Shown: positions 1,331-8,258 of the stretch, one piece after another
Layout of the letters: every line of letters starts with the position of its first letter
Position numbering within the stretch: position 1 is the first letter of the stretch
From: a virus
IMG/VR virus record: IMGVR_UViG_3300020177_000060
Coordinates: 1-24,655 of that record
Length of the DNA: 24,655 nt
Direction: 5' to 3' (one strand)
Program-made: the position numbers and the translations under genes
Notes under the pieces: generated by a model
The model's database searches: none
What the model was told of the DNA's origin: nothing
Seen by the model: only the letters and a program-made list of their open reading frames with translations

Positions 1331-2500
1331 CTAATTCTTAGTTACACTATTTGAGAATTTCTTTAATGTCCCCAGCATGTCTAAAGCAGCCTCTGATAGT
1401 ATTCCAACTTCACCGTTAGGGAATTCTAATAAAATATTCAGAACATCGACCCCTTCTCCTTCAAAAACATTATCTACTTGAGCGATATGTTGAGACATCC
1501 AGGCTCCATAGTTTCTAGTTATTTCTAGGTTAAAATCTATTGAAGTTTTAAGAAAATCTCCAGATCTAGAAGTTATGTTATAATTTTGACTCCTTATCTT
1601 AGCTCCCTTAAAAAGTAATCCTGATTTTTGATCATTAGGGGTTCTTTGTAGAGTTTCACAGCTCCTCCTAGCATTGGTTATTGTAAAATCACTCTCTCTA
1701 TCATTACATAATAATTCAGATAATTGACCGTGAATACTTTTTCTAACTACAGCTTCTATACTAATACTAGCATCTATTGGGAAAACTAATTTTCTATTAT
1801 GAAATTTTTGACCAAAATCGTATAATATTTTATAATTTAAAGGTGCTGAAAAATTAAAATTAGTAACTATGTCCTTCATTGTAAAACCACCCATACTTAA
1901 ATTTATCTCAGATTCATCTCCTGGGTTTATTATTAAGTAATTTTCATTTGTTATTTCCAGGTCTTCGTTATCGAAATCCAAAAAATTATATCTTTCAATA
2001 TTTTTAAAAGTTTTAAAAATTAAATCATCAGCGGAAAATTCAACATTTATTTTTATCATGCCTGAAGCTGTCACGGTCATATTGTAATTTTCCATTACAG
2101 CATTTGAAAATGCACACATTTCAATTAAATCGTCACCCTTTCTTGATTGTGTATTTTGATCAAAATCAGAAAAGCCAGGTATAGTTGCAAAAAATAAATC
2201 AAAGCTTTCCATATTACTAAACATTGCCTTCCCGTCTTGAACTGATTCTTCACTTGTAACTGGCATCCTAAATAATTTTTCATTATCTACATCAGATAAA
2301 TAATAACTAAATCTTATTGAAGGTCTCGGACTTTGATTTATATTGTCCTGAATATATTTATAACCTACTGATTTAATCCTAGATCTATCTACATCAAATC
2401 CAAATTCTACATCTGTTATTAAAGATATCGGATTTAATGATCCTTCAGCTGTTCTTGACTTGGCAAATAGCCTCGCAGAATTATATCTTATTAAATTCAT
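1331..2500 (-). CDS. Tail-tube-like structural protein, two-domain paralogue (389 aa)
   Basis: This frame of 389 residues starts at an ATG without a clear Shine-Dalgarno. No enzymatic motif, signal peptide or membrane segment is visible. It appears to be built like the 278- and 253-residue proteins at 20678-21514 and 19915-20676. A first domain ends in a hairpin around residues 134-156 (ENYNMTV...INVEF). A second domain carries YKILYDFGQKF (223-233) where the others have YYKIG or SYKIG, and closes with GAKIRSQNY and a beta strand (299-327). About 60 extra residues follow (328-389). It stands alone between the fibre gene and the divergent region, away from its paralogues. It may be a tail or baseplate-like adaptor for the fibre encoded just downstream. 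That role is inference; the paralogy is a pattern match by eye. Confidence 0.55.
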   Translation of the reverse strand: MNLIRYNSARLFAKSRTAEGSLNPISLITDVEFGFDVDRSRIKSVGYKYIQDNINQSPRPSIRFSYYLSDVDNEKLFRMPVTSEESVQDGKAMFSNMESFDLFFATIPGFSDFDQNTQSRKGDDLIEMCAFSNAVMENYNMTVTASGMIKINVEFSADDLIFKTFKNIERYNFLDFDNEDLEITNENYLIINPGDESEINLSMGGFTMKDIVTNFNFSAPLNYKILYDFGQKFHNRKLVFPIDASISIEAVVRKSIHGQLSELLCNDRESDFTITNARRSCETLQRTPNDQKSGLLFKGAKIRSQNYNITSRSGDFLKTSIDFNLEITRNYGAWMSQHIAQVDNVFEGEGVDVLNILLEFPNGEVGILSEAALDMLGTLKKFSNSVTKN

Positions 2501-2510
2501 TTGTTTTTTT

Positions 2511-2567
2511 CAAATAATATATACACTTTTTAGATTAAAAAATTAAAATTAGTGTATAATATAATTG
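2511..2567. promoter_or_regulatory. Divergent promoter region with 17-bp inverted repeat
   Basis: The 80-base gap 2501-2580 separates a minus-strand and a plus-strand gene. Its right arm (2551-2567, AGTGTATAATATAATTG) contains a perfect TATAAT at 2555-2560 reading toward the plus-strand pair. Its left arm, read on the minus strand (2527-2511), is AGTGTATATATTATTTG and matches the right arm at 13 of 17 positions. The arms are separated by 23 A/T-rich bases. No convincing -35 box is seen at 2531-2537. The arms could be two outward promoters with the same recognition element, or an operator shared by both. Confidence 0.5.
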
Positions 2568-2580
2568 ATAAGATCTTGAT

Positions 2581-4419
2581 ATGGCTAAAACATCAAATAT
2601 AAAAATTAGAGGAACTTTTAAGGTTGGCAATTCATTAATAGATAATACAATGCCTATTTATAAGCCTACTGGGGATCCAGTAACTTTAAGGCAATTACTG
2701 GATAGGCCCGAACATTACCTAGGAAAAGTCGGTAAATATTTCGGAATCGATTATGATTCTAAAACAATAAAAAAACAAGACTTCTGGATACCAGGTGAAG
2801 GCAATAAAACAGTAGTCAATCCAGGCAAAGGAGATTCTTCAATAGATTTAAAAAAGTATCTTGAATATGATGACGACCCATTTATTTCTGTAGATACTGT
2901 ATCTCCAGGAGATCATGATACTATTAATTCATCTGAATACCAACTTGAGTACTCTGACCCTATCCACGGGACCAAACAAAGCAGGAAGTTGAAATATCAC
3001 ATGACCTGTGAAGAAATACAATATGTACTTGATAATGATTTTATTAGTGGTATCAGTGGTTTTAATGTCTCTTCGGCTGGATATATAAACTGGCCAGTTT
3101 TTGGGCCTTACTTAATACAAAATAATGAAACAGGTATTTTCAATCAAACTCTATCTGTAATCAACCAAGATAACCCAAGTTTTATTAGCGGTAATGTGGA
3201 TAATGTTTTTGATGGAAGCGATAGCGACCGAGCTATTAAATATTTAAAGTTTCATAAAACAGGCCAAATTAAAGATCAAGTTTATAGAGTAACAGTTAGT
3301 GGTTTTCCCGAATCCTTCATTGAAGGAAATTCTTACCAAACATACAATATTGGTTCAAGAAGCATGTCAATAAGTACTGCTGCTGGAAGGATTTTAAATG
3401 ATGGTAATGGTATCCCTTATATGTATGAAGGGTATTTTAGTATATCGGGAGCCGAAGACCTTGATGAAAATAATAATTACATAGTTGATATAACAGGAAA
3501 TTACGAAACGGGAGCATTTGGATCGGTTTCTGAATTTATTTTATATAAAAATTATGAAGAATTTTATATTACATTTGATGATGTTATAGATGCTGATGAT
3601 ATGGACAAGCCTCTTCACATTATTGATGCTGAGTCAGAATCAGTTATAAATGAAGTTACTCGTTTTGCTGCAAATCCAACAATAATTGGCTTGCAAGATT
3701 TCAATTCAAATGCAGATTATACTGAAAATAATTATTGGTATGTTGGAGCTCCTTATGTTTTTCATGCCCATCCATACTTTAACTACAAAAAAGTAACTAT
3801 TAAAAATAGCCCTGAAATAGAAGCCTTTAGAATTCCAGGTCAAAATGCTAAAGCTACCAGATTTTTGCATGAAATCGAATGTACTAATAACCCTAATTTA
3901 GAATATTTTAATATACCTGCAGGATTGCATTTGTCTAAATTAAATCTCTCTGGATGTAATGTTAAAAATTGGAATGAAGCTCATAGTTATCATCCTAATC
4001 AGGAAGCTAGCGGATCCTACCCTAATAATATGTATTCATATTTTGACACGGGCAAGCATGTGATGATCGGATATGATGGTGTTGAAAAAGACCTTCCTGG
4101 ATCAGAACAGTTAAGCCTACTTTCTTTTGGTTCTGCTGGTTTGAGCTATATTAATTTATATGGAAATAATTTAAACCAAACTGGTATACATTACATATTG
4201 GCGACTCTTCAGACGTCGGCGGTTAATGGATACCTAGACATAAGATCCCAGACTCCCAGAAACGGCCCACAGGCTGCAATTTTCAATGGTTTCAGGGAAA
4301 ATCCATACGATAAAATTGGAGATAAAAACAATTTCATTGTTAGCGGAATTATGTATTTAATGGACCAGGGATGGACCGTTAAATACGACGGATCAATACC
4401 AAATTACCCAAGCCATTAA
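2581..4419 (+). CDS. Leucine-rich-repeat-like virion/adhesin protein (612 aa)
   Basis: A 612-residue protein opens the only plus-strand block of the window. The N-terminal 350 residues are hydrophilic, Asp/Asn-rich and probably beta-rich, and I recognise no family in them. Residues about 400-600 look like irregular leucine-rich repeats: KKVTIKNSPEIEAFRIPG, LHEIECTNNPNLEYFNIP, LSKLNLSGCNVKNW, LSYINLYGNNLNQTGIHYIL. The tail ends in the LMDQGWTVKYDG closure often seen after such repeats. There is no signal peptide, membrane segment or sortase signal, which suits a virion protein more than a bacterial surface protein. The start has a TATAAT box 20 bases upstream but no clear Shine-Dalgarno. The gene lies 5 bases before the next and is probably co-transcribed with it. 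Likely a host-binding or decoration protein; this rests on repeat type and position next to tail-fibre genes. Confidence 0.55.
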   Translation: MAKTSNIKIRGTFKVGNSLIDNTMPIYKPTGDPVTLRQLLDRPEHYLGKVGKYFGIDYDSKTIKKQDFWIPGEGNKTVVNPGKGDSSIDLKKYLEYDDDPFISVDTVSPGDHDTINSSEYQLEYSDPIHGTKQSRKLKYHMTCEEIQYVLDNDFISGISGFNVSSAGYINWPVFGPYLIQNNETGIFNQTLSVINQDNPSFISGNVDNVFDGSDSDRAIKYLKFHKTGQIKDQVYRVTVSGFPESFIEGNSYQTYNIGSRSMSISTAAGRILNDGNGIPYMYEGYFSISGAEDLDENNNYIVDITGNYETGAFGSVSEFILYKNYEEFYITFDDVIDADDMDKPLHIIDAESESVINEVTRFAANPTIIGLQDFNSNADYTENNYWYVGAPYVFHAHPYFNYKKVTIKNSPEIEAFRIPGQNAKATRFLHEIECTNNPNLEYFNIPAGLHLSKLNLSGCNVKNWNEAHSYHPNQEASGSYPNNMYSYFDTGKHVMIGYDGVEKDLPGSEQLSLLSFGSAGLSYINLYGNNLNQTGIHYILATLQTSAVNGYLDIRSQTPRNGPQAAIFNGFRENPYDKIGDKNNFIVSGIMYLMDQGWTVKYDGSIPNYPSH

Positions 4420-4424
4420 TTAAC

Positions 4425-5516
4425 ATGAGTATATTTATAGACATAAGTAATACACTATTCAATGCCCAAACAGACAAGGACGGACAAGAACTAGATTATA
4501 TAACATTTGTTCCATGTGCTACTGTTTATCATGAAGATTCTGTATCTGTAACTAATTACAGTTGGACTTTTTTAGAACTGCAATCTACATTCAAAAATGC
4601 AGTGGGCCATGAAACATATGCTTCACTAAGCTCTATAGGAGACACTAATAAAATAAATCCATTATTTAAATTATCCGACATACAACAAGATGAAGTTGTT
4701 TTTGTTAATTTGGGTTTAGAAGTAACCCTCGATGATGGATCTGTTTTTTCAGAACGAGCAAACATAACACTATACAGAGGCGACCCTAAAAACACAAGTT
4801 TTGCTATACAGCATCAACAAAACGGAAGAATCGTAAAAGAATATATATATGACAGAGCTGTTGAGGAGCAAATACTTGCCGCTAATATTGGTGATAGAAA
4901 TTTTTTCTCTGAGCAATCTGATACCGTTCAAGGTATGAATTATAGCATATCTCAATATTTATCTCAGAAAAAATATTTGAAAGAACAGGGGTTGGATTGG
5001 TCGGCTTATTCTGATCGCGGTCCTGTCAAAAACAAAGACGGAGAAATTAATCAAGCTAGTGAAGAAACATTCACTTCAAGAAAAGCTACTCAATTCGTGA
5101 AAAATGAATTAGCTTTTTATGCTCATGGCAGAAAAACCGATAAGACTTCAATATCCACCCTCTTATATCAAAACCCAGCTAATTTTCAAAAAAATGGTAC
5201 TGAAGCTCCTGACTTCGGCATATATCAAATTGCTGTAGAAAATTGGTGGGAATCCCCTCCAGGGTTTAATACATTTGAAACTCCTTTACTTAATCCTACT
5301 TTAGGAAAGTCTGCTAAGTTTTATTTTCCAGGCAGAAGTAGTCACGGCGGAGGCTCAAGCGGGCCGCTATTCTGCTGGACAGATCTAATAACTTTTACAT
5401 GGACTCCTCCTACTTATCCCCCAGATTGTCCTCCAGGTGATACTTCATTGATATGTCAAGGTACAGCTACCTTTAGTGTTCCTCATTGCGTGCCTATAAT
5501 TTGTTCAAGTTGTTAA
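4425..5516 (+). CDS. PKD/Ig-like protein with cysteine-rich C-terminus (363 aa)
   Basis: Second gene of the plus-strand pair, starting 5 bases after the leucine-rich-repeat gene without a visible Shine-Dalgarno. Residues about 30-118 resemble a PKD or Ig-like beta-sandwich (NYSWTFLEL, then VVFVNLGLEVTLDDGS and ANITLY). Residues 125-270 look mostly helical and polar. From residue 303 the protein changes to a Gly/Ser stretch (SSHGGGSSG) and a Pro/Cys-rich tail with cysteines at 317, 335, 344, 355, 360 and 363; only one other cysteine (31) occurs. The final SSC is the very C-terminus. I do not recognise a family. Close coupling to an adhesin-like gene suggests a partner structural protein, perhaps with a metal-bound or disulfide-linked tip. 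There is no signal peptide. Its stop faces the stop of the 909-residue gene across 12 bases. Confidence 0.5.
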   Translation: MSIFIDISNTLFNAQTDKDGQELDYITFVPCATVYHEDSVSVTNYSWTFLELQSTFKNAVGHETYASLSSIGDTNKINPLFKLSDIQQDEVVFVNLGLEVTLDDGSVFSERANITLYRGDPKNTSFAIQHQQNGRIVKEYIYDRAVEEQILAANIGDRNFFSEQSDTVQGMNYSISQYLSQKKYLKEQGLDWSAYSDRGPVKNKDGEINQASEETFTSRKATQFVKNELAFYAHGRKTDKTSISTLLYQNPANFQKNGTEAPDFGIYQIAVENWWESPPGFNTFETPLLNPTLGKSAKFYFPGRSSHGGGSSGPLFCWTDLITFTWTPPTYPPDCPPGDTSLICQGTATFSVPHCVPIICSSC

Positions 5517-5528
5517 AGAATTTTATTT

Positions 5529-8258
5529 TTACTTGGCCACAATATAAAGTTGATAATTATCAACAGGTATCATAGCTGTCCCCAACCCTAGCAGAACAGA
5601 ACCTTCCATTACTCTACCCTGTGGGTTTATATTTTCTTCTTGAAATGGTATTCCCGCTTGATGTAAAGATACCTCAAAAGTAGTGCCAGGTCTTATTTTT
5701 TCATCACTATCATAAATGGTAAAAGTATGAAACAATTCATTTGCCATTTCCCCCCCCCAACCCAACTGATCGTAATCAAAACCATAAGATGCAAGTACCC
5801 ATGGATGTAATAATGTTTTAACTTGCTTTGCAACCATTTCTCTCGAAATGGCTGATGTAGCCCTGTCATTTGTATAAGCTCCAGTTCCAAACATTCTTTG
5901 CATGCTAAATGCGGCTACAATAGTTGGTGTTAGGAAATTATATTGAGTATCTACATAAAAAGCGTTCAATGCACTATCTTTTTCATGAGCACAGAAAACA
6001 TACCACGCTTTATCTAAATTTTCCGCAACATTAGCTGTTCCGTAAGCTGAAACATTTTGGAAAAAATTAGTCCATTGACCAGATCTAGTAGAAAAATTTT
6101 GAGCGAAAAAACCTGGAGAGAAACTTGCTAAATTTATTTTATAACTCGGCCATATTGACCCAGAAACAGGATCTAAACCCCCAAACATAAAAGATCTAAT
6201 ATCAAGGTTTATGTTGTCATAAGGCCCTTGTATGTCATCAGCAGTTCCAAGTACCCCATCTGGTCCAGAAGAATAAGAATTATAAGTCTCTTTTTCTGTC
6301 GCTATAAAGTTTAAAAAACTTAAATCTAAAACAATACTCTTCATGCCAGTAAAACCTGTTGATCCTCCAGCTCCGCTACCTGCAACAGCCCTTTCGTGTT
6401 CATAGTATGTTACCCAAGCACAATTATCCCATGAAATACTTTGAGCTCCTATATCTGTAGAAATATGCCCTAATCCTGAATTTGCAGTTCCTAATCTAAA
6501 CCTATCCCAATATGCAGCCATTGAATAATCTTTTGTAAGAAACAAAGATTCTCCTAACTCGTTTCCAAAATGAGGGTGTCTTACAGCTTTACCGCTACTT
6601 TTAGTTGGAAAATCAGGGTTAAATCTAGCCTGATTATAAACTCCTTGTATTGTTTCATTTCCATTATTTGCGTTGCTTCCTGTTGATTGGAAAAGATCGT
6701 AACTCAATGGAGTTAAAAATCTTGCCCACCTGTTCGCCTCTGAACCTAAATGTTCATACCTTATGTTCGCGCAACTTGAATTTATACTATTATCCTCATC
6801 GAAGACACTTAATTTATAATTACCCCATGTATAATCTGAATTGGGTGATCCTCTTGGTACTCTTAGTGTAAACTCAACACTACTCTTTGCTTTGCTTGGG
6901 GCTTGACTTAATGTCGCACCATCTTTAGATGCAGCTGTAATCTTGTACCAAGTATCATCTCCACTGAATTTTATTTGGAATCCAGCGGCTACGTATCTAT
7001 CAACTTTTGTAGTGGATGCATTTGATATATTTGAATAATAGCTCGCAAATGTTAGTGTTGCTCCTGCAGTGCTTGCTTTTCCTAATGAATATATACTCGT
7101 TCTCGGGACTTCCACCCAAGGCCCTAAAACATCATCCTTAGCTTTTAGCACGTTATCGTTTTTCTTAATAGTTATGTTTTTAATATTTACTGACCCCGTG
7201 TCGATTTGTTGCCTAGGAACAATTGTTCTATGAATAACAGCATCGCTTACAGGAATCTCGCCTGCATAAGTTGTTCCCTTTGCTCCTGGAACCCAGCCGT
7301 TAGAACTCCAATAAACAGGGTCTTCATATTGCCAAGTATCAGTTCCAGCAAAGTCTATTGCAGGATCAACTCCAACCGCTACATTCCCTGCATTTCTTGG
7401 CCAAATAAATCGATCACAAAACATAGCAGCTATTACTCTTTCAATGTCCCCCTGAGGAAGTCCTGCAGCATTAACTTCATTATGATTATAATATTGCCCT
7501 ATTCTATAAAAATTTAAATCTCTTCCCCAAAATGTCTGCCAACTAGTTTCGAATGTCGGAAGCCTTCTATCTGACAAATTCATATTTGTTTGGTTATATA
7601 TATATCTCGTTCTTTTTAAAACCAACCTATAGCCTTTGTAGTTCTTTGTTGTTACTATTTTTAATGGAAATGATGAATGTATACCAATAAATGGATTTGT
7701 TATGTTATATATATTAGCGCTAGTACTTAATTGATGACAACCTTCTCTGTTTTGTGCTTGGAATAAATGATCAACTAAAGTGGAATGATTATCTGTAGCG
7801 CTCAAATCACCTCTTTCCCCAACTGGATATCCAGCGTTGCCGTTTAAATCATTTACGTCCATACCATTAACCGTTGATGTGCTGTATAGCCTGGCGCTGT
7901 ATTCTCCGTCTAATGCGCTAATATCTGGCCAGCCGAAAACATGTTCTTGCTGTTCTCCCATTTCAAAATCAAAATTCTGTTGGTTTTGGCTCCAAGCTTC
8001 TGTTTGTGGATAAAATCGATTATTCGCAAATGTGCTCCATGAACCATCAGCGTATGGCCAATTCTGCAACCTTAAAGCTATAGCTTTAAATGGAGCCATG
8101 CAAAATCTTCTGTAGCCTGGCCAACTAAATGTAGAATGAGAATCTTCTGATTGTGTTTGTCCAAACCTTACATCAATAGCATTTGAAGATTCTCCATCTC
8201 CTCTATCAGCATAGTCGCTCCCCAGAAATCCATGCCAAACAATATCATCAAAAGGCAT
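5529..8258 (-). CDS. Large protein of unknown function, probable virion structural (909 aa)
   Basis: A 909-residue frame of unrecognised family. Composition (rich in Asn, Ser, Tyr, Trp and Gly, poor in Lys runs) and position downstream of J suit a large beta-rich tail or capsid-decoration protein. There is no signal peptide or membrane helix. Residues 365-470 look like a small beta domain (WVEVPRTSIYSLG, then FQIKFSGDDTWYKITAAS). Residues 665-682 hold GPDGVLGTADDIQGPYDN, resembling calcium-binding DxDGxxGTxDD loops. The final domain (about 835-909) is beta-rich, with TIYDSDEKIRPGTTFEV and a LLGLGTAMIPVDNYQLYIV ending. The ATG at 8258 lies 12 bases after the 48-residue gene, with only a weak GAAAG upstream. 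A nine-G run near residue 834 is unusual in this AT-rich gene. Alternatives are a tail-tip or receptor-binding protein or a phage-encoded head fibre; no enzyme motif is evident. Confidence 0.5.
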   Translation of the reverse strand: MPFDDIVWHGFLGSDYADRGDGESSNAIDVRFGQTQSEDSHSTFSWPGYRRFCMAPFKAIALRLQNWPYADGSWSTFANNRFYPQTEAWSQNQQNFDFEMGEQQEHVFGWPDISALDGEYSARLYSTSTVNGMDVNDLNGNAGYPVGERGDLSATDNHSTLVDHLFQAQNREGCHQLSTSANIYNITNPFIGIHSSFPLKIVTTKNYKGYRLVLKRTRYIYNQTNMNLSDRRLPTFETSWQTFWGRDLNFYRIGQYYNHNEVNAAGLPQGDIERVIAAMFCDRFIWPRNAGNVAVGVDPAIDFAGTDTWQYEDPVYWSSNGWVPGAKGTTYAGEIPVSDAVIHRTIVPRQQIDTGSVNIKNITIKKNDNVLKAKDDVLGPWVEVPRTSIYSLGKASTAGATLTFASYYSNISNASTTKVDRYVAAGFQIKFSGDDTWYKITAASKDGATLSQAPSKAKSSVEFTLRVPRGSPNSDYTWGNYKLSVFDEDNSINSSCANIRYEHLGSEANRWARFLTPLSYDLFQSTGSNANNGNETIQGVYNQARFNPDFPTKSSGKAVRHPHFGNELGESLFLTKDYSMAAYWDRFRLGTANSGLGHISTDIGAQSISWDNCAWVTYYEHERAVAGSGAGGSTGFTGMKSIVLDLSFLNFIATEKETYNSYSSGPDGVLGTADDIQGPYDNINLDIRSFMFGGLDPVSGSIWPSYKINLASFSPGFFAQNFSTRSGQWTNFFQNVSAYGTANVAENLDKAWYVFCAHEKDSALNAFYVDTQYNFLTPTIVAAFSMQRMFGTGAYTNDRATSAISREMVAKQVKTLLHPWVLASYGFDYDQLGWGGEMANELFHTFTIYDSDEKIRPGTTFEVSLHQAGIPFQEENINPQGRVMEGSVLLGLGTAMIPVDNYQLYIVAK
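5750..5758 (-). repeat. Nine-G homopolymer in the 909-aa gene
   Basis: The plus strand shows nine C in a row (G9 on the coding strand), encoding the Trp-Gly-Gly of QLGWGGEM. It is the longest G/C run I noticed in the window; the next is a G7 in the tape-measure gene. A one-base slip would replace the last ~75 residues and, in the frame I read, stop after about twenty codons. Confidence 0.8.

Follow-up and report, generated by a model that had tools for sequence, protein, structure and literature searches.

Leucine-rich repeat (LRR)-like proteins of phage tail modules and Ig/PKD-type phage surface proteins are already known kinds, as documented in the accessible portions of three reports (PMC10945359, PMC11821841, PMC13370021). 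The tail module of the Vibrio mediterranei phage P. lipares encodes an LRR-like, highly variable protein, for which the available part of the paper records its authors' proposal of a role in host recognition (PMC10945359). Here we describe two adjacent genes, P1 and P2, encoding a predicted LRR-like and a predicted PKD/Ig-like protein respectively. They lie in the IMG/VR virus record IMGVR_UViG_3300020177_000060, the whole of which (24,655 bases) was analysed and is referred to below as the window. P1 (2581-4419, + strand) starts with ATG and encodes 612 amino acids (aa), the N-terminal half being more conserved (residues 111-230) and the C-terminal part LRR-like. P2 (4425-5516, + strand) also starts with ATG, encodes 363 aa and follows P1 in the same direction after 5 nt. 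P1 and P2 are probably a fixed, late-made pair of tail-tip adhesins belonging to an uncultured group of marine phages, with both proteins expected to be present in the virion and to take part in binding.

Like the P. lipares protein, which is the most variable of its set, P1 is encoded in a tail module and carries LRR-type segments (PMC10945359, accessible portion). The P. lipares protein differs in belonging to a different phage and in having weak LRR homology (10% probability by its authors' HHpred), and the text available describes neither a PKD partner nor an opposite-strand pair (PMC10945359). P2 has in common with T4 Hoc, T5 pb10 and Sf14 gp20 a PKD/Ig-like beta-sandwich on a phage protein, thought in those cases to be adhesive; these three are described in the accessible parts of the reports as capsid decoration proteins, whereas P2 is encoded among tail-tip genes, with a Cys-rich tip and an LRR partner (PMC11821841, PMC13370021). 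Internalins and other LRR adhesins resemble P1 at the level of fold only, through an LRR solenoid as predicted recognition surface; P1 is matched to them solely by the fold of a moderate model, with no Pfam LRR family above cut-off. Morons are additional genes, transcribed on their own, that sit among the late genes of phages. P1 and P2 recall them in having their own start element and in running opposite to their neighbours, but they are not variably present in the loci compared, they lack a terminator-like site, and their start element is shared with structural genes. No match to the two families, to their pairing or to their divergent wiring with a tail-tube-like gene was found in the literature searched, most subscription journals being outside its reach. 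For this group of large marine phages, the locus contributes a start element and two co-conserved protein families not described before.

The initial annotation singled out an opposite-strand gene pair among tail genes that read right to left, and the layout agrees: the window's 13 largest non-overlapping open reading frames (ORFs; 80 aa or longer) comprise 11 on the - strand, and the two on the + strand are P1 and P2. The longest - strand ORFs within P1 and P2 are 54, 79 and 61 aa. That both are real genes is shown by homologues in nine other lineages, which have 23-37% identity to the window copies and no internal stops. Searches of Pfam, PHROGs and 50,697 phage records gave no significant match for P1 or P2, and their homologues likewise match no Pfam or PHROGs family significantly. 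Weak matches that we did not use were to PHROG tail fiber families (one P2 homologue each, E 0.0065 and 0.0087) and to Glyco_hydro_77 (one P1 homologue, E 0.012).

Relatives were reached through neighbouring genes. Since single-protein scans with P1, P2 and the adjacent 389-aa protein found nothing in viral_contigs or the phage collection, the 909-aa protein on the other side of the pair and the J-like protein were used as anchors. This bait returned eight IMG/VR contigs, seven of which were searched further; the eighth (3300020188_001611) ends within the 909-aa gene. Both P1 and P2 are present in four of the seven (G002, G003, G004 and G006), on the opposite strand and between the 389-aa and 909-aa homologues. 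The remaining three miss the site: G001 stops within the 909-aa gene, G007 stops within the fibre gene, and G005, a 14-kb piece with no match to any of P1, P2, the 389-aa or the 909-aa protein, does not cover it. G007 first looked pair-less and is uninformative because its contig ends short of the expected position of the pair. A P2 profile added L051, L052/L055, L053 and L062, a contig of a metagenome-assembled genome (MAG), all with the same layout, although loci found via P2 profiles are biased towards having the pair. A profile of the 389-aa protein, which is independent of P1 and P2, recovered 10 loci from eight distinct phages, including two loci (L074 and L080) not found by other baits. 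P1 and P2 were present in all ten and directly divergent from the 389-aa gene.

The pair is present in 10 distinct lineages including the window (G003/G004 and L052/L055 each counted once). In nine of these the gene order is J, 909-aa, P2<P1, 389-aa, fibre, with the pair in the tail module between the J/909-aa and 389-aa/fibre sides. P2 begins -4 to 14 nt from the end of P1 across lineages, and the 3' ends of P2 and the 909-aa gene are -4 to 12 nt apart wherever these converge (12 nt between stop codons in the window). L080 is the exception. In it, the block of P2, P1 and the 389-aa gene is inverted along with an additional 370-aa gene. P1 and P2 there share the reading direction of J, the 909-aa gene and the fibre gene, the 389-aa gene is opposed to them, and the pair still adjoins the 389-aa and fibre genes. 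Because the block is flipped in this distant relative, the opposite orientation is not essential: what persists is the back-to-back arrangement of P2-P1 and the 389-aa gene, and not their strand with respect to the tail operon. The locus also shows that genes running against a tail operon as an island are not necessarily an accessory insertion.

A start element containing the motif GTGTAW precedes P1. In the window it reads GTGTATAATATA (2552-2563, + strand), 29 nt before the ATG, and holds TATAAT at 2555-2560. The TATAAT box that had been credited to the pair is thus real as a start signal before P1, but it is part of a phage-wide GTGTAW element shared with structural genes. Counterparts stand before the 389-aa gene (GTGTATATATTATTTG, 2511-2526, - strand) and before the fibre gene (1309-1323, - strand, 15 nt before the ATG). 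Across 278 ORFs of the phage group, the 60 nt ahead of the start contain GTGTAAT 17 times against 1.0 expected and GTGTATA 11 times against 0.9; the null here is the genome-wide word frequency, under which other AT-rich words are also 3- to 6-fold enriched before starts and GTGTAAT 17-fold. With fixed starts, GTGTAW lies at most 45 nt before P1, the 389-aa gene and the fibre gene in 8/8 lineages each (for the fibre gene the distance is 15 nt every time), whereas P2 and the 909-aa gene have it in 0/8 each; by chance, it occurred in 228 of 20,000 random 45-nt windows of G011, a 163-kb relative. The motif also precedes P1 and the 389-aa gene in L074 and L080, the tape measure gene in G011, G001, G006 and G007, and a portal-like gene in G011 and G007 (absent there in G001 and G006). 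This last gene is named from its sole phage-collection match, at 20% identity, annotated as portal in one of two records. Within G011, GTGTAW is enriched in the late block (7/33 vs 6/124 outside; one-sided p 0.0067).

The presence of GTGTAW phage-wide and before the 389-aa gene, the fibre gene, the tape measure and some head genes suggests that P1 and P2 are probably read together with the structural genes. Lacking an element of its own and lying so close behind P1, P2 is probably co-transcribed with it. The short, near-constant distance from element to start at many genes suggests very short leaders, and it is possible that late transcripts are near-leaderless, as the exact 15-nt spacing before the fibre gene in 8/8 lineages leaves no room for a long leader. 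In L080, the extra 370-aa gene that follows the 389-aa gene (5449-6561, + strand) carries its own GTGTATATATAAG element 15 nt before its ATG.

The C-terminal part of P1 (residues 367-612; 3679-4416, + strand) is likely an LRR solenoid, as judged from AlphaFold2 models, which for P1 and P2 were built from seven sequences each (region-wise conservation was likewise computed from seven sequences). The leading VIA-align matches of P1 are LRR proteins, most of them over about residues 367-612; they include an internalin (4fmz; Z 10.2, root-mean-square deviation (rmsd) 2.8, 147 aligned) and the Nogo receptor (5o0q; Z 10.2, rmsd 3.0, 156 aligned, model residues 369-610). LRR-type segments number 25 over eight P1 proteins, compared with 9.9 (standard deviation (sd) 3.0) in composition shuffles, none of 2000 being as high, although the pattern was chosen after the sequences were seen and the excess is not a blind test. 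No such excess occurs in P2 or in the 389-aa and 909-aa proteins. Other comparisons gave less: the best viral fold match is named as a tail fiber protein (E 6.7e-6, TM-score just 0.15), Foldseek returned no PDB match at E <=0.001, a sequence-profile search of solved structures gave weak matches (best E 0.018), and the best Pfam LRR match among seven P1 homologues was LRR_6 at E 0.017. The LRR-like impression of P1 in the initial annotation, which might have failed on closer analysis, was instead supported by the models and the segment test, short of the Pfam cut-off.

For P2 we assign, with low to moderate confidence, a PKD/Ig-like domain to the N-terminus (residues 1-123; 4425-4793, + strand), a region modelled at a predicted local distance difference test (pLDDT) score of about 53-83 per 10-residue block. 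The top four VIA-align matches of this region are PKD domains (Z 9.5-8.8), the best being 2yrl (Z 9.5, rmsd 2.8, 94 aligned), and AAVR (6ihb) scored Z 9.1. Three PDB matches at E just under 0.001 were found with Foldseek, none of them a PKD. The sequence-profile search of solved structures gave weak matches (best E 0.41), and one P2 homologue had a weak Big_10 match (E 0.23). The earlier PKD-like assignment accordingly agrees with the model and stops below the Pfam cut-off. The proposed Cys-rich tip is real: six of the seven Cys of P2 fall within the last 80 residues, and the variable C-terminal tip spans residues 311-363 (5355-5513, + strand). For both proteins the LRR and PKD labels denote fold resemblances and not family memberships, because Pfam cut-offs were unmet, and the fold comparison scarcely covers P1 residues 1-167 and P2 from about residue 122 on.

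Divergence is faster in P1 and P2 than in either of the genes beside them. Mean pairwise identity over eight lineages (L074 and L080 left out) is 35.3 for P1, 39.0 for P2, 43.8 for the 909-aa protein and 55.7 for the 389-aa protein. In the closest pair, G002/G006, the values are 74, 72, 81 and 91, respectively. This rapid change fits host contact.

Under the adhesin reading, P1 and P2 would be transcribed as one short operon from the GTGTAW element, divergent from the 389-aa tail gene, and the use of an element common to tail and some head genes would bring about their late production. P1 would dock on the tail tip through its N-terminal half and recognise a cell-surface receptor through the LRR solenoid at its C-terminus. 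P2 may be a partner or stalk of P1, with its PKD/Ig-like domain, a conserved middle and the variable Cys-rich outer tip. A host-range or virion-decoration role had been suggested for the pair; of that suggestion, host interaction stands as the likeliest function, together with the absence of a match to any named tail family, and the idea of mobility does not. If P1 is a recognition protein, its LRR face gives a direct handle on host range in the group.

Several observations weigh against this interpretation. Both models are of low to moderate quality (mean pLDDT 59.6 for P1 and 48.4 for P2). VIA-align Z scores below about 13 for repeat proteins may reflect only a common arrangement, and the LRR matches of P1 score about 10. 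The window P1 has no Pfam LRR match above cut-off (LRR_1 at 11 bits vs 20.6 required), and Pfam gave no PKD family among seven P2 homologues at E up to 1. The LRR part is not the most variable region of P1, residues 231-366 having a mean pairwise identity of 0.18 and residues 367-612 one of 0.33, and the P2 of L080 is without most of the conserved middle. GTGTAW also precedes a ribonucleotide reductase gene (Pfam) and other non-late genes, so that the element is not purely structural; a second gene preceded by it is one we take to be ribonucleotide reductase.

A bolder version of the adhesin reading can be entertained tentatively. P1 and P2 may constitute a new two-protein receptor-recognition apparatus, with an LRR reader and a PKD, Cys-tipped partner, that defines a group of large uncultured marine phages; a double start region specific to the phage might link it, back to back, to the tail-tube-like paralogue and so coordinate the production of recognition and tube proteins.

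The most serious competitor, which we nevertheless judge rather unlikely, is that P1 and P2 serve the structure or assembly of the tail tip, for instance as a collar, chaperone or adaptor, without touching the receptor, and that host binding is left to the fibre and the J-like protein. Their strict conservation and their close linkage with the tail-tube-like paralogue would suit such a role, and the adjoining fibre gene, with its BppL_N repeats, encodes the obvious binding protein. The faster divergence of P1 and P2 relative to their 909-aa and 389-aa neighbours speaks against it, as do the predicted folds, LRR and PKD/Ig being fold types typically found in recognition and adhesion.

An anti-host or superinfection function, exercised in or on the infected cell by proteins outside the virion, is quite improbable for the pair. 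The opposite strand and own start element would be compatible with such a role, and virion membership is for P1 and P2 itself a prediction; what makes it less likely is that the start element is common to structural genes, and the position among tail genes in all lineages and the adhesin-type folds point the same way.

The proposal that the pair is a mobile, moron-like host-range or decoration cassette inserted in the tail operon has very little probability left. It drew on the opposite orientation and own start element, to which could be added the flipped block of L080 (flipped with respect to J, the 909-aa gene and the fibre gene) and another opposite-strand block, sugar-related by eye, that follows the 909-aa homologue in G007. 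The pair is, however, invariably present at the 389-aa site (10/10 loci) in an order kept in 9/10 lineages, the window shows no G+C step, positions 2400-5700 hold no terminator-like site (within the shuffle range of 1.9, sd 1.7), and no long inverted repeats surround the pair, the best in 2300-5800 being 20 nt at 75%; the G007 contig ends in the fibre gene, ahead of the expected site. We therefore reject the moron or mobile cassette. A phase-variable invertible cassette would be expected to show inverted repeats at its flanks, an invertase and both orientations in close relatives; the 20-nt repeat is the best of that kind, and an inverted block occurs in the distant L080 only. The comparison of synteny that had been suggested shows that all relatives covering the site carry both genes, though not as genes of known function.

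A target diversified by a diversity-generating retroelement (DGR) was rejected, as the PF00078 reverse transcriptase was found in 0/8 records, which are fragments or of uncertain completeness, while control genomes were positive, and a repeat search for a DGR in G011 alone gave best matches of 23 nt (E 0.04). A plain sigma-70 promoter was also rejected, such sites in the region being at chance level (18 vs 16.0, sd 3.7, in shuffles).

The site of P1 and P2 is the downstream end of a lambda-type tail series in the window. This series includes a gpL-like protein (Pfam Phage_tail_L, E 2.8e-39), a protein matching a PHROG minor tail protein (E 5.1e-17) and another matching a PHROG tail assembly family (E 1.1e-29), which we take to be gpK-like and gpI-like, respectively, and a 2802-aa gpJ-like protein with about 30% identity to host specificity proteins J. 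The tape measure was named by position and size. The convergent neighbour of P2 is the 909-aa gene (5529-8258, - strand), whose homologues range from 634 to 1492 aa. The divergent partner of P1 is the 389-aa gene (1331-2500, - strand). Neither neighbour has a significant match in Pfam, PHROGs or the 50,697 phage records, the profile search by sequence against solved structures gave no matches for either, and profile comparison of P1 with the 909-aa family showed no relation. The 389-aa protein looks tail-tube-type because it is distantly related to the 561- to 594-aa protein directly upstream of the tape measure (25-29% identity over about 100 residues, E 3e-5 and 2e-4; G001:C1:25068-25355 and G007:C1:25340-25654), and would be a paralogue sited at the tail tip. 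Beyond it lies the fibre gene (1-1308, - strand), truncated by the window end, with repeats that match BppL_N in Pfam (E 1.1e-12), presumably the N-terminal domain of lactococcal-phage-type baseplate proteins.

No close cultured relative of this marine phage group was found in the phage records compared. Binning places L062 (JAQXAG010000048.1) in a MAG of Candidatus Neomarinimicrobiota, a weak lead to the host; this single-contig link may be a binning error and was not used. In G007, the stretch after the 909-aa homologue (G007:C1:48900-65075, L038) is rearranged relative to G011; it is here that the - strand sugar-related block is found, and the fibre gene at the contig end reads the other way relative to G011. 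In G011 itself, the tail block is followed by about 20 + strand genes (G011:C1:83575-103339), many of which resemble, by eye, genes of sugar metabolism or glycosyltransferases. The head-gene part of the late block holds a further island on the opposite strand, made up of three genes (G011:C1:37230-39290; G001:C1:28271-30355). This island is conserved in G001, G006 and G007, and its 253-aa protein shows 74-79% identity.

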